From a virus, in the IMG/VR virus record IMGVR_UViG_3300029266_000517, positions 1 through 46,858 of that record: a stretch of DNA of 46,858 bases; one strand, written 5' to 3'. Positions 1-7,175 of this stretch are shown here, piece by piece. Each line of letters begins with the position of its first letter. The stretch's first letter is position 1. The position numbers were made by a program, and so were the translations under genes. The notes beneath the pieces are model-generated. The model was not told the origin of the DNA, made no database searches, and saw only the letters and a list, made by a program, of their open reading frames with translations.

Positions 1-633
1 ATCTTACCATTACTTGGCGCAAGCACATGGAGAACAAAAGTATTTTCCATGATGCACGATGCAGAGAAAATCATTGACGAGCAATGGTCACAATCTAATT
101 ATAAATGTGGAGGCCATATCACAATGGCTTGTGAAGGAATGGATGGTGAAGAGATTCGCAAAGCAGTACGTAAAAACATGGGAATCTTTTATGCTCTATT
201 CAGAAAACGTTTATCAAACGGTTACTGCAAGCATAATATTTTAATGGAAACTAGAACAGGAGGAATGTCTAGATACCAAGCAGTATTAGTTAAATCTAGC
301 ACAATAGAATTCAGACTGATATCAAAATTTCAAACTGTTAAGCAGATGATGAGACGATACGAACTATGCTACGAGTTGATGAATTTCTCTATCAACAATC
401 CTAACGGAAGCCATGGTTCTTTCCTTAAGAAAATTACACCAATCATTGTATCGATGTATGAAGGTGACATGTCTAAAGTTGCGTACATCTTAGACTTAGC
501 AAAGCACATGAGAAAGTACTTGACTACAGGAAAGGTAAACAGACAGGTAATTAACTTTATTGACCCTGCTCGTAATATGAATGCGACAGACTGTTACGAC
601 AGAGAGTTACTGAGAAACGGATACCGAGCATAG
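1..633 (+). CDS. Amidoligase-like protein, C-terminal part (5' truncated)
   Basis: The reading frame is open to the left edge, so the start lies outside the window; the first in-window ATG (49) is probably internal. About 210 residues are visible. The pattern CGGHITMA, then LFRKRLSNGYC, then TIEFRLISKF followed by a long helix resembles the C-terminal half of ATP-grasp/glutamine-synthetase-like amidoligases (Amidoligase_2 type), where a GxH strand, an R..N.YC helix and an IEFR strand recur. Such enzymes form amide bonds between carboxylates and amines. The call is supported by the class II amidotransferase/cyclotransferase fusion at 2234-3316, a known partner type. The ATP-binding N-terminus cannot be seen. 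I recognise it by pattern only; it could be another ligase-fold protein. Confidence 0.55.
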   Translation: MLPLLGASTWRTKVFSMMHDAEKIIDEQWSQSNYKCGGHITMACEGMDGEEIRKAVRKNMGIFYALFRKRLSNGYCKHNILMETRTGGMSRYQAVLVKSSTIEFRLISKFQTVKQMMRRYELCYELMNFSINNPNGSHGSFLKKITPIIVSMYEGDMSKVAYILDLAKHMRKYLTTGKVNRQVINFIDPARNMNATDCYDRELLRNGYRA

Positions 634-666
634 CATCCGAAAATCCTAAGCAAGATTTAAAACTGC

Positions 667-721
667 TTTCTGTATCTAGGTGTGTACCTAGGCTGACGAT
701 TCCAAAAGGATGAAACAGAAA
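667..721 (+). ncRNA. Type III hammerhead ribozyme, copy 1
   Basis: Stem III is UUUCUGU (667-673) with ACAGAAA (715-721), 7 bp. The nucleotide before the predicted cleavage (H17) is A674, in a GUA triplet. Stem I is 675-681 with 686-692 (7 pairs including one U-G) and loop GUGU. Then come the core CUGACGA (693-699, fits CUGANGA), stem II UUCC-AAAA-GGAU (700-711; three pairs plus a U-U mismatch next to the core) and GAA (712-714). All invariant core bases are present. Ends lie in stem III, hence type III. Predicted cleavage is between 674 and 675. It sits 34 nt after the stop of the amidoligase-like gene and 17 nt before the next ATG. The U-U at 10.1-11.1, normally G-C, could weaken activity. 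Confidence 0.8.
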
Positions 722-738
722 CCTTAAAACTATTACCA

Positions 739-972
739 ATGAAAAAAGACCCGTATAACTTATTATTTACGATTATCGGAAAGACTATAATGGTCTGTGT
801 TTGTTTATTCATCTATTCATCTGTGGCTAGACTATGCTACACGATAGCAGTTGATGACGTTAATACTTTTGCACAAGGATTTTTCTTCCTCGTCTTTATA
901 ACATTCGTCTCAGCACTAACTTATGTATCAGCAGTATTAATGTTCACCGAATTATTTAAAACCAAAAACTAA
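739..972 (+). CDS. Small membrane protein, two predicted transmembrane helices
   Basis: A 77-residue protein with two hydrophobic stretches, about residues 9-36 and 46-70, joined by a short acidic loop, with lysines at both termini. It should be an inner-membrane protein. I do not recognise a family. The ATG at 739 follows the copy 1 hammerhead by 17 nt, so cleavage would leave a short 5' leader starting with the stem I hairpin. The next gene, a tiny lipoprotein, starts 3 nt after its stop, so the two probably form a membrane-associated pair. A holin or superinfection-exclusion role is possible, but nothing in the sequence shows it. Confidence 0.6.
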   Translation: MKKDPYNLLFTIIGKTIMVCVCLFIYSSVARLCYTIAVDDVNTFAQGFFFLVFITFVSALTYVSAVLMFTELFKTKN

Positions 973-1899: not shown

Positions 1900-2147
1900 A
1901 TTATGACAATTGGAAGTTAGCATCACCTGATGAATATTATCAGGTAAGTAGATGTTGTGGCGCAGAAGTTGAAGACCCAACAGAGGAAGAACTCGAAGAG
2001 GACTTTGAGCATGAATACAAGTGTGTAGAATGCAACGAAGGTTGCGAAGTACAAGACTTAGATGAATACCAACAAGACAGGCACGAATCTTATTTAGAAG
2101 ACTGTGCCGATGACGAAAGACATGAAAGAAACCTAGGTAGCGACTAG
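1896..2147 (+). CDS. Acidic zinc-ribbon protein
   Basis: An 83-residue, strongly acidic protein with Cys20-Cys21 (RCCGAEV motif) and Cys43/Cys46/Cys50, consistent with a zinc ribbon. The C-terminal half is rich in Asp and Glu, so a DNA-mimic or protein-binding role is conceivable but not shown. It is translationally coupled to the preceding gene by a 4-nt overlap. A promoter starts at the end of this gene (2145). Confidence 0.55.
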   Translation: MNYDNWKLASPDEYYQVSRCCGAEVEDPTEEELEEDFEHEYKCVECNEGCEVQDLDEYQQDRHESYLEDCADDERHERNLGSD

Positions 2148-2175
2148 GTTATGTCTAAATTTTGTTGTATCTTTG
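2145..2175 (+). promoter_or_regulatory. Promoter with TAnnTTTG -7 box and 18-bp upstream box
   Basis: TAGGTTATGTCTAAATTT (2145-2162) is followed 5 nt later by TATCTTTG (2168-2175), which fits the Bacteroidota -7 consensus TAnnTTTG. The same 18-bp box at the same distance occurs at 3786-3816. No clear -33 TTG is present, so the 18-bp box may replace it. It drives the amidotransferase-cyclotransferase gene through a leader of about 50 nt. Confidence 0.75.
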
Positions 2176-2188
2176 TATAAATCAATCA

Positions 2189-2233: not shown

Positions 2234-3316
2234 ATGTGTGTTATTATCATTAAACAAAAAGGTAATGTGATGTCAAGGGAAATCGCCAGGACATCATCAA
2301 AAATTAATCCTCACGGATTAGGAATCGTATGGCTAGATACTTTCGAGGTCAGCTATCACAAATCAAAAGAGTACAAATTACTATTGACAGAGAGACCATT
2401 CATTGCTCACTTTAGGTACGCAACTGTAGGTAAGGTAGGACTGTCAAACACTCACCCATTTACATGCGGGAACAACAAGGACGAACTGCTAATGCAGAAC
2501 GGAACTATCAAGGGCATCGGAACAGATGCAATGTGCGATAGTAAAGTATTAGCTATCTCACTTGGAAACATTAAGAGGCAGGATTGGAAGACAGAACTAG
2601 AGCAATACGACTCAAGGTTTTGTACCATTAACCTTAGGACTAGGTCATTCCAAATTTACAATCGTAATCTATATACTTATAGAGATGGTGTTTGGTATTC
2701 TAAAACAAATGTATTGCAGGACAATTTGGTTGCGGTGTACGGAACTCTTAAGAAAGGGTTCAGCAACTACCATGCATATCTTACGAACTCAAAGCACTTA
2801 GGTAGCGGAGTAACAAAACAGAAATATCCATTGGTTGTTAACGGGTTACCTTACTTACTACCACAAGTAGGAGTAGGCCACAACGTAAAGGTTGATGTCT
2901 TCAAAGTAAGCGACTTAACTTTTAAGAAGTTAGATAGCTTAGAAGGTCATCCAAGATGGTACAAGCGAGAAGAAATAGAAATCAATATGGATGGCAAACC
3001 AAACCTTACTTGTTGGGTTTACTTTAATCCTATAGAGGTTGATGAGAAAACAGAATTTGTTCAGTCTTTTGAGTACACTAAATTTCAACTCCAACAAACG
3101 GCAGGAGATGTGCAAGATGATTTCGCATCTGAATCTGAAGACCCAAATCAATACCAATATGATATTGATTGGAATGATAATGAATTTCCAACGAATGAAA
3201 CTCCGACATGTATAGATTGCTTTGGCGATGTAGAGCATGATGGGTTTAGCAATTATTACTGTTCCTCTTGTGGTGGGTGGTTCAAGGAAGACGAGGTCTT
3301 GAAATATCAAGAGTAG
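2234..3316 (+). CDS. Class II glutamine amidotransferase fused to gamma-glutamylcyclotransferase and zinc ribbon
   Basis: A 360-residue protein in three parts. Residues 1-150 form a class II glutamine amidotransferase: Met-Cys start (Cys2 would be the N-terminal nucleophile), HGLGIVW (27-33), HFRYATVGKVG...THPF (59-76), MQNGTIKG (88-95) and DSKV near 102. Residues 165-290 form an AIG2/GGCT-like cyclotransferase: AVYGTLKKG (167-175) and LDSLEGHPRWYKRE (233-246). The C-terminus has CIDC and CSSC, a zinc ribbon. I set the start at 2234 because the Cys must follow Met and an ATCAAATCAAATT leader precedes it; an upstream in-frame start would bury the Cys. The domains suggest release of ammonia from glutamine and processing of gamma-glutamyl peptides, fitting the amidoligase-like gene at the left edge. 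Confidence 0.85.
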   Translation: MCVIIIKQKGNVMSREIARTSSKINPHGLGIVWLDTFEVSYHKSKEYKLLLTERPFIAHFRYATVGKVGLSNTHPFTCGNNKDELLMQNGTIKGIGTDAMCDSKVLAISLGNIKRQDWKTELEQYDSRFCTINLRTRSFQIYNRNLYTYRDGVWYSKTNVLQDNLVAVYGTLKKGFSNYHAYLTNSKHLGSGVTKQKYPLVVNGLPYLLPQVGVGHNVKVDVFKVSDLTFKKLDSLEGHPRWYKREEIEINMDGKPNLTCWVYFNPIEVDEKTEFVQSFEYTKFQLQQTAGDVQDDFASESEDPNQYQYDIDWNDNEFPTNETPTCIDCFGDVEHDGFSNYYCSSCGGWFKEDEVLKYQE

Positions 3317-3323
3317 TCTTAAA

Positions 3324-3349
3324 GGGTAGTGTCTTCAAAGACACTATCC
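3324..3349 (+). repeat. Dispersed palindrome copy abutting hammerhead copy 2
   Basis: An 11-bp hairpin with a TCAA loop at 3335-3338, built on the exact core at 3329-3344. The extended arms include one G-U pair (G3326 with U3347) that exists only in + strand RNA, the transcribed direction. The hairpin ends at 3349 and the hammerhead starts at 3350, so the upstream cleavage product would end 6 nt after this stem. There is no T-run after it. Confidence 0.85.
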
Positions 3350-3400
3350 TCCGTATCAAGATGTTTGTCTTGGCTGATGATTCCATAAGGATGAAACGGA
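3350..3400 (+). ncRNA. Type III hammerhead ribozyme, copy 2
   Basis: Stem III is UCCGU (3350-3354) with ACGGA (3396-3400). H17 is A3355 in a GUA triplet. Stem I is 3356-3362 with 3367-3373 and loop GUUU. The core is CUGAUGA (3374-3380), stem II UUCC-AUAA-GGAU (3381-3392), then GAA (3393-3395). The architecture matches copy 1, with different but still complementary stems I and III. Predicted cleavage is between 3355 and 3356. It begins 34 nt after the amidotransferase stop and ends 17 nt before the next ATG (3418). The same U-U mismatch beside the core as in copy 1 is the only departure from the usual consensus. Confidence 0.8.
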
Positions 3401-3417
3401 AACTAAATACTTTTATA

Positions 3418-3785: not shown

Positions 3786-3816
3786 TAGGTTATGTCTAAA
3801 TTTAGTATTATATTTG
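3786..3816 (+). promoter_or_regulatory. Promoter with TAnnTTTG -7 box and 18-bp upstream box, second copy
   Basis: TAGGTTATGTCTAAATTT (3786-3803) is followed after 5 nt by TATATTTG (3809-3816). Box and spacing are identical to 2145-2175; only the 5-nt spacer and two bases of the -7 box differ. The leader AATCAATCA...AATCAAATCAA leads to the ATG at 3844. Confidence 0.8.
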
Positions 3817-3843
3817 TTTAATCAATCAACAAAATCAAATCAA

Positions 3844-4804: not shown

Positions 4805-4949
4805 AGACACGGTGTCGTATCCAATTAGACACGATAGTGTGTCTTCAAAGACACAACCGAACATTGTTAGCACGCTAACAAAATTATTTGAATCATTCGG
4901 CGAGATATATAAAGCTGACTTTAACCCCTTAAACAAAGAAACAAAATGA
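4782..4949 (+). CDS. Small protein overlapping a cluster of GTGTC/GACAC sites (55 aa)
   Basis: A 55-residue ORF from ATG 4782, overlapping the previous gene by 23 nt and the next by 4 nt (ATGA), so it bridges the two. A longer in-frame version from 4677 would lie mostly inside the preceding gene and is less likely. The N-terminal 25 residues are encoded by a stretch crowded with GTGTC/GACAC half-sites, giving repeated D-S/T-V-S motifs. The C-terminal half looks like a short amphipathic helix. Function unknown. Confidence 0.5.
   Translation: MKNLSENKDTVSYPIRHDSVSSKTQPNIVSTLTKLFESFGEIYKADFNPLNKETK
4839..4854 (+). repeat. Dispersed palindrome copy
   Basis: An exact copy of GTGTCTTCAAAGACAC inside the 55-aa gene. 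More half-sites stand upstream: GACAC 4806-4810, GTGTC 4812-4816 and AGACAC 4827-4832, so alternative hairpins can form. Confidence 0.85.
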
Positions 4950-7024: not shown

Positions 7025-7175
7025 ACCCATAGTGTCTTTGAAGACACTATTAACTAAAAACAAAAGGCGTGTGATGTGGTTGGAAGCTCCAATGGACTGC
7101 AAAACACGTAAGGAGAAAGATAATCTAATCCTAAATACAATCAACATATTGGAGCAAAACGTAAAAATCAATTAA
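7008..7175 (+). CDS. Small ORF containing a dispersed palindrome (55 aa)
   Basis: ATG 7008 to TAA 7173-7175, 55 codons, overlapping the exonuclease by 17 nt and ending 2 nt before the SSB-like ATG, so it would fill the gap exactly. The middle carries the 22-bp palindrome, and the C-terminal half is a plausible charged helix. The region could instead be an untranslated leader for the next gene. Confidence 0.4.
   Translation: MMNFFKPIVSLKTLLTKNKRRVMWLEAPMDCKTRKEKDNLILNTINILEQNVKIN
7029..7050 (+). repeat. Dispersed palindrome copy, extended arms
   Basis: Exact core in the opposite orientation, GTGTCTTTGAAGACAC (7032-7047), extended by ATA and TAT to 10-bp arms around a central TG. It lies immediately after the exonuclease stop and inside the 55-aa ORF. 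Confidence 0.85.

Follow-up and report, generated by a model that had tools for sequence, protein, structure and literature searches.

Hammerhead ribozymes with a U-U stem II base as probable interchangeable cleavage modules between early phage genes

The window analysed here, a stretch of 46,858 nt of viral DNA taken as a whole, contains at 3350-3400 an element confirmed here as a type III hammerhead ribozyme (HHR) of the U10.1-U11.1/A17 subtype. This element, copy 2, is one of two same-type HHRs of the window, which lie 2681 nt apart on one strand. The HHR is probably one of several interchangeable modules that would cut early polycistronic RNA between genes behind a protective structure. 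Such elements are common in IMG/VR, where almost all of them fall below the Rfam cut-offs. The parts of the two copies are as follows.

3350-3400, plus strand: type III HHR, copy 2 (match to covariance model R1 at 3346-3404, 70.7 bits, E 5e-21)
3350-3354/3396-3400, plus strand: stem III of copy 2 (UCCGU/ACGGA), from the sequence and the MFE fold
3355/3356, plus strand: predicted self-cleavage site of copy 2, between A17 (3355) and U1.1 (3356), from hammerhead anatomy
3356-3373, plus strand: copy 2 stem I, a hairpin with all cells paired among the homologues (100%)
3374-3380 and 3393-3396, plus strand: core strands CUGAUGA and GAAA of copy 2, from the sequence
3381-3392, plus strand: copy 2 stem II, in which U10.1 (3381) and U11.1 (3392) form a mismatch
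667-721, plus strand: type III HHR, copy 1 (R1 match at 665-723, 73.7 bits, E 5e-22)
667-673/715-721, plus strand: stem III of copy 1, 7 bp, from the sequence
674/675, plus strand: predicted cut of copy 1
675-692, plus strand: stem I of copy 1
693-699 and 712-715, plus strand: core strands CUGACGA and GAAA of copy 1
700-711, plus strand: stem II of copy 1

The positions read from the sequence of copy 2 agree with the MFE fold and with R1, and the cut predicted between 3355 and 3356 is in line with the 3356 end proposed in the earlier note, taken as a new 5' end. Both copies possess the type III core, namely CUGAUGA or CUGACGA, GAAA, the A15.1-U16.1 pair, and A17 (an H17 nucleotide, not G), and the core nucleotides are invariant among the homologues. 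The topology is also that of type III, with loops capping stems I and II and an open end at stem III, as seen in the fold, the pair counts, and the full-length R1 matches. The Watson-Crick pair at 10.1-11.1, which is usually G-C, gives way to U-U in both copies and the majority of homologues, while G-C occurs in 15 of the 59. Because U-U has been described among natural hammerheads and allows cleavage (PMC3088659), this mismatch defines a subtype and does not exclude the elements from the hammerheads.

The model R1 was built from an alignment (A1) of 59 homologues that excludes the window. Searched over the 46,858 bases with full scoring, it returned only copies 1 and 2, the next match in the window reaching 11.3 bits; that a model free of the window finds both (E about 5e-22 and 5e-21) bears out the earlier reading of copy 2 as a second type III hammerhead. 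A candidate third hammerhead at 1107 (CTGAAATCC...GGAGAAAG) was rejected, as it is without CUGANGA and stem III, lies inside an ORF, and is not among the R1 matches. A pattern limited to the core and stem II (CTGANGATTCCN3-8GGATGAAA), which leaves stems I and III free, matches at least 119 loci in IMG/VR. Among the unique core-pattern matches listed, type III stems are present in 68 of 91, compared with 0.57 expected from shuffled flanks, and type I stems in 6 of 91, compared with 0.29. A type III descriptor found 143 elements in the window and the 119 listed phage loci and 0 in the reversed sequence of the same set.

In the alignment of the 59 homologues, 93.1% of the cells are paired, and double-change cells number 258, compared with 62 in shuffled and 18-50 in slid versions; none of 500 shuffles reached the observed count. 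As these 59 rows were picked by a descriptor requiring some pairing, the independent evidence lies in the 68 of 91 matches and in the set of homologues fetched by protein similarity that is described below. The check on homologues proposed earlier found stem I cells paired in 100% and stem III cells in 92.9% across diverse phages. The compensatory changes noted in stems I and III are thus genuine, given the massive covariation in 59 independent homologues. The accompanying argument that covariation within one genome is strong evidence holds less well: two copies alone are weak evidence, and it is the homologues that make it strong. Two details of the architecture also need adjustment. The stem II sequence, UUCC-N4-GGAU, comprises 3 pairs because its outer position is U-U. 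Stem I was described as 7 pairs with a 4-nt loop, of which 6 pairs stand; the seventh is only U-G or U-A in the 59 homologues, and since the closing position is always U-purine, a conserved UGNGUR hexaloop over 6 pairs describes the top of the stem better.

The Rfam search at the curated cut-off reported neither copy. Against RF00008 (Hammerhead_3) only copy 2 scored, at 30.6 bits, below the cut-off of 48.5, and almost all relatives are likewise missed; one homologue with G-C at 10.1/11.1 passes, and the G-C homologues in these phages mostly stay below the cut-off as well (40.5-44.4 bits). RF00008 and the phage elements have the same fold and core, and most phage elements are missed because the family represents neither a stem I with a hexaloop nor a U-U base of stem II.

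The identity of the stem II base goes together with that of nucleotide 17. Hammerheads with G10.1-C11.1 mostly have C17 (20 C and 4 other in type III; 75 C and 10 other in type I), whereas those with U-U have A17 or U17 (78 against 3 with C in type III; 15 against 2 in type I). The coupling is significant by Fisher tests that ignore relatedness (p about 1e-14 in type III and 1e-9 in type I), and a larger set agrees, with the few A-A cases mostly having U17. It is seen separately in type I and in type III hammerheads, two topologies related by circular permutation (loci L003-L149 and L361-L477). We know of no structural reason for this coupling, which offers a clue to the active site of a very well studied ribozyme. 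The combination of U-U with A17 may mean slow cleavage.

Both HHRs of the window are located between early genes on the same strand, with start codons 17 nt past each ribozyme. The neighbouring features are given below.

49-633, plus strand: gene ending just before copy 1, cut off by the window start
642-668, plus strand: H-type pseudoknot upstream of copy 1 (P1 642-645/654-657, P2 648-652/664-668)
739-972, plus strand: small ORF whose start lies 17 nt past copy 1, from the sequence
2145-2180, plus strand: promoter-like repeat (TAnnTTTG type, direct repeat D7) ahead of the gene before copy 2
2234-3316, plus strand: gene before copy 2, with class II glutamine amidotransferase-like and gamma-glutamyl cyclotransferase (GGACT) domains
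3324-3349, plus strand: stable 11-bp hairpin GGGUAGUGUCU-UCAA-AGACACUAUCC, abutting copy 2 right behind the upstream stop codon
3418-3540, plus strand: small ORF of 40 aa whose start lies 17 nt past copy 2, from the sequence
3786-3821, plus strand: the other promoter-like D7 repeat, with 86% identity to 2145-2180

The gene at 2234-3316 is assigned by phrog_2520 (1.4e-20) and Pfam GGACT (1.3e-21), with GATase_4 at 1.8e-4, below its cut-off; the gene at 49-633 has no Pfam or PHROG match. The two 36-nt repeats at 2145-2180 and 3786-3821 have the look of Bacteroidetes-type promoters, stand upstream of two early genes, and are putative promoters; since copy 2 is between them, it would lie inside a transcription unit. 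Across 44 virus records there are 1-5 HHR copies each, and where flanking genes were found the median spacing is 33 nt past the upstream stop and 23 nt before the downstream ATG. In the 82 loci whose orientation is given by an early gene, all 143 R1 matches are on the sense strand. MAG contigs binned as Patescibacteria (L124, L126, L130, L131, L136, L141, and L146) also contain type III hammerheads of the U-U kind, often preceded by a hairpin, and L146 has three of them.

The hairpin at 3324-3349, folded together with the HHR, has an MFE of -28 kcal/mol (z about -4). No U run directly follows this hairpin, UCCGUAUC coming next, and it is therefore no classical terminator. A hairpin of at least 6 bp ending 0-5 nt before stem III is present at 187 of 258 unique HHRs (about 72%), compared with 13-21% at control positions, which leaves about 28% of HHRs with no detected hairpin. 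The 40 nt before the HHR have a mean MFE of -12.2, as against -5.2 after other stop codons, and a z below -2 in 68% as against 16%, while the 40 nt after the HHR are little structured (MFE -2.25). Copies of the palindrome GTGTCTTyrAAGACAC also occur in the window at 2194-2214, 4837-4857, and 7030-7050 with no HHR or tRNA-like element behind them, one of them behind a promoter-like repeat and those at 4837 and 7030 apparently within or before small ORFs; the palindrome may have another role there.

Copy 1 has no abutting hairpin of the copy 2 type, and its upstream neighbour is the H-type pseudoknot, of which the last 2 nt of P2 also belong to the outer portion of stem III, made of A-U pairs. 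In six variants, the pseudoknot helices are 100% paired, with compensatory changes in both. Its pattern gave 155 unique matches in viral contigs, P1 being formed in 125 of them, and no Rfam match was found for it in the loci searched. The form NNNC-CUNAGCAN-GNNN-NNAAAC-UGCUN, in up to 4 copies per phage, was observed in the window and at L055, L062, L097, L025, and L478-L597, in some cases with a hammerhead or tRNA immediately behind it. A tRNA follows the pseudoknot by 4-14 nt in 14 of 121 cases, compared with 0.3% at random positions.

The protein encoded at 49-633, used as a query, retrieved 75 loci at 35-99% identity, a set that is independent of the RNA because it was fetched by protein similarity alone. 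Among the 74 loci with sequence beyond the gene (the contig of the 75th, L229, ends too early), the site behind the gene holds an HHR in 60 and a tRNA-like element in 11. Six of the latter were found by a descriptor (L185, L200, L202, L209, L213, and L216) and five by eye (L181, L225, L194, L203, and L233), and L181 and L225 were also matched, weakly, by model R2 (E 0.012 and 0.048). Of the remaining loci, L226 has a hairpin only, and L173 and L175 have another structured element. Four instances of this last element, CUACCA..stem..CAGAAACG..stem..GGAUUUGGUGGUAG, were seen at the hammerhead site or in its vicinity (L173 4603-4680, L175 4600-4665, L352, and L357), and none of them could be assigned to any ribozyme. 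Behind the amidotransferase/GGACT gene, nine homologues divide equally into HHRs (L150-L152), tRNA-like elements (L154, L156, and L157), and neither (L153, L155, and L158), L153 having a hairpin and then a T-rich run. On the tree of the 49-633 protein, at least 7 switches between HHR and tRNA-like element and at least 4 between U-U and G-C hammerheads at the copy 1 site were counted, approximate numbers because several branches are weakly supported.

The tRNA-like element consists of a 6-7 bp acceptor stem, a GGU linker (AUGGU-type; consensus AAUGGUUNNAG) that resembles a stemless D-loop, and a T-arm carrying TTCGANT, and has no anticodon arm. Examples between phage genes are L154 5140-5181, L156 5139-5179, L185 4632-4672, and L209 3594-3634; none was found within the window. 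Of the 176 hairpins in the loci that resemble a T-arm, 33 had a matching acceptor, compared with 5.3 when the 3' strands were swapped, and an independent viral scan for a T-arm with a matching acceptor gave 15 against 0.45. Across 28 sequences, 94% of the cells of the fold are paired, with 139 double changes as opposed to 38 in shuffled versions. All 29 tRNA-like matches are on the sense strand, most of them being training members of R2 or their close kin. An abutting hairpin is present at 19 of 32 elements, compared with 14% at controls, and many elements start 0-3 nt after the same GUGUCUUYRAAGACAC-type hairpin. Ordinary tRNAs were rejected as an explanation, as neither ARAGORN nor Rfam called any of the elements, and att remnants of tRNA genes were set aside in view of several different elements per phage, helix covariation on both strands, and the shared special linker. 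The elements have the structure of RNase P substrates, that is, a coaxial acceptor and T-stem of about 12 bp with a TTCRANY loop, and in vitro RNase P RNA cleaves hairpins of acceptor plus T-arm with high efficiency (PMC11143913). Cleavage of the phage elements by RNase P is nevertheless uncertain because they have no encoded CCA and no full D-arm.

Since both modules swap at one boundary, right behind a stable structure, intergenic cleavage is suggested as their shared function. The HHR would cut the early polycistronic RNA right behind the hairpin (copy 2) or the H-type pseudoknot (copy 1), so that the upstream mRNA would end a few nucleotides past the structure and be shielded from 3' exonucleases, and the closed stem I hairpin would stand at the 5' end of the downstream mRNA, whose start codon follows the ribozyme by 17 nt. 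In relatives, host RNase P could cut the tRNA-like element right behind the same kind of hairpin. The sequences show the hammerhead fold and its covariation, the sense-strand position between genes, the adjoining hairpin or pseudoknot, and the exchange of HHR and tRNA-like element at an orthologous site; cleavage in the cell, RNase P cutting of the tRNA-like form, and 3'-end formation as the purpose are what we infer from this arrangement. A more general proposal stands about evenly between right and wrong: that mRNA 3' ends are formed in many phages by a stopper (a hairpin or a small H-type pseudoknot) joined to an exchangeable cleavage module (a type III hammerhead, a genuine tRNA, or an RNase P substrate of the mini-tRNA type), with the mini-tRNA and the pseudoknot as undescribed classes and nucleotide 17 tied to 10.1-11.1. 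The role of phage hammerheads has been a question since 2011, and the exchange of HHRs with elements resembling RNase P substrates points to intergenic cleavage and 3'-end formation.

Three other explanations deserve consideration. The HHR might be a slow or conditional regulator of the downstream gene, U-U/A17 being a deliberately weak form of the G-C/C17 core. The presence of both versions within the same genomes and a start codon about 20 nt downstream fit such a role, as does the lowering of hammerhead activity by core changes reported by Perreault et al. (PMC3088659). On the other hand, the U-U and G-C versions swap at the same orthologous site (4 tree changes), a ligand domain would not fit into an element of 54 nt, and the exchange for tRNA-like elements suggests that what matters is cleavage itself. 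We regard regulation as an unlikely purpose. The fact that the two HHRs of the window are of the same type and 2681 nt apart on one strand would also suit the excision of a 2.68-kb RNA that a host or phage ligase circularises, as in retrozymes and viroid-like agents, and the 5'-OH and 2',3'-cyclic phosphate ends left by hammerheads can indeed be ligated. However, about 20 of 44 phage records have a single HHR, spacing and enclosed genes vary, the tRNA-like replacements would leave different ends, and Perreault 2011 sought spliced or circular products of clustered hammerheads and found none (PMC3088659). We consider a circular RNA very improbable.

Slightly less probable still is that the hammerheads are decaying, non-functional, or due to chance, and that only the hairpin matters, as a terminator or a protein-binding site. 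The hairpin does occur without a ribozyme, and the amidotransferase homologue in L153 has a hairpin and T-rich run instead of one, but the invariant core and covarying stems in 59 diverse homologues, the retention of an HHR at 60 of 74 orthologous sites, and the position of stem III, not a T run, behind the hairpin argue against loss of function. Cleavage between genes behind a stable structure remains our preferred explanation.

The ribozyme itself is of an already known kind because, in Perreault et al. 2011, natural hammerheads that start stem II with U10.1-U11.1 are reported, this mispair supporting more cleavage than any other, and the hammerhead of Pseudomonas phage PaP3 is listed among the active core variants (PMC3088659). 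The PaP3 and Clew-1 elements have the same U-U/A17 type III motif, that of PaP3 lying just before orf71, and a short query recovered PaP3-like phages. A DNA similarity search with 6 kb of the window against named phages gave only a 68-base Sak match. With the PaP3 HHR, those of the window share the type, the U-U stem II base, A17, the stem I loop GUGU, the 4-nt stem II loop, and an intergenic location in a phage just before a gene. In contrast to PaP3, the phage of the window belongs to another group (its host being suggested by the Bacteroidetes-type promoters) and has several copies per genome, an abutting 11-bp hairpin or pseudoknot, and tRNA-like replacement in its relatives. Clustered prophage hammerheads have been suggested to process long transcripts, and the consulted sections of that paper describe for them no protective structure or tRNA-like replacement, unlike the phages discussed here (PMC3088659). 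Our literature search, patchy for subscription journals, found no paper on hammerheads in Bacteroidetes phages and none on a phage mini-tRNA of such a kind; within the literature searched, the modular arrangement of hairpin or pseudoknot with a cleavage element and the mini-tRNA alternative appear to be new. A known case of 3'-end formation comparable to the tRNA-like element behind a stable structure is MALAT1/mascRNA. The minimal RNase P substrates of the AT1 type also resemble the phage element, being made of an acceptor and a T-arm with no anticodon arm (PMC11143913). What distinguishes the phage element from both AT1 and MALAT1/mascRNA is that it occurs naturally in the intergenic regions of phages, with a conserved GGU linker and no encoded CCA.
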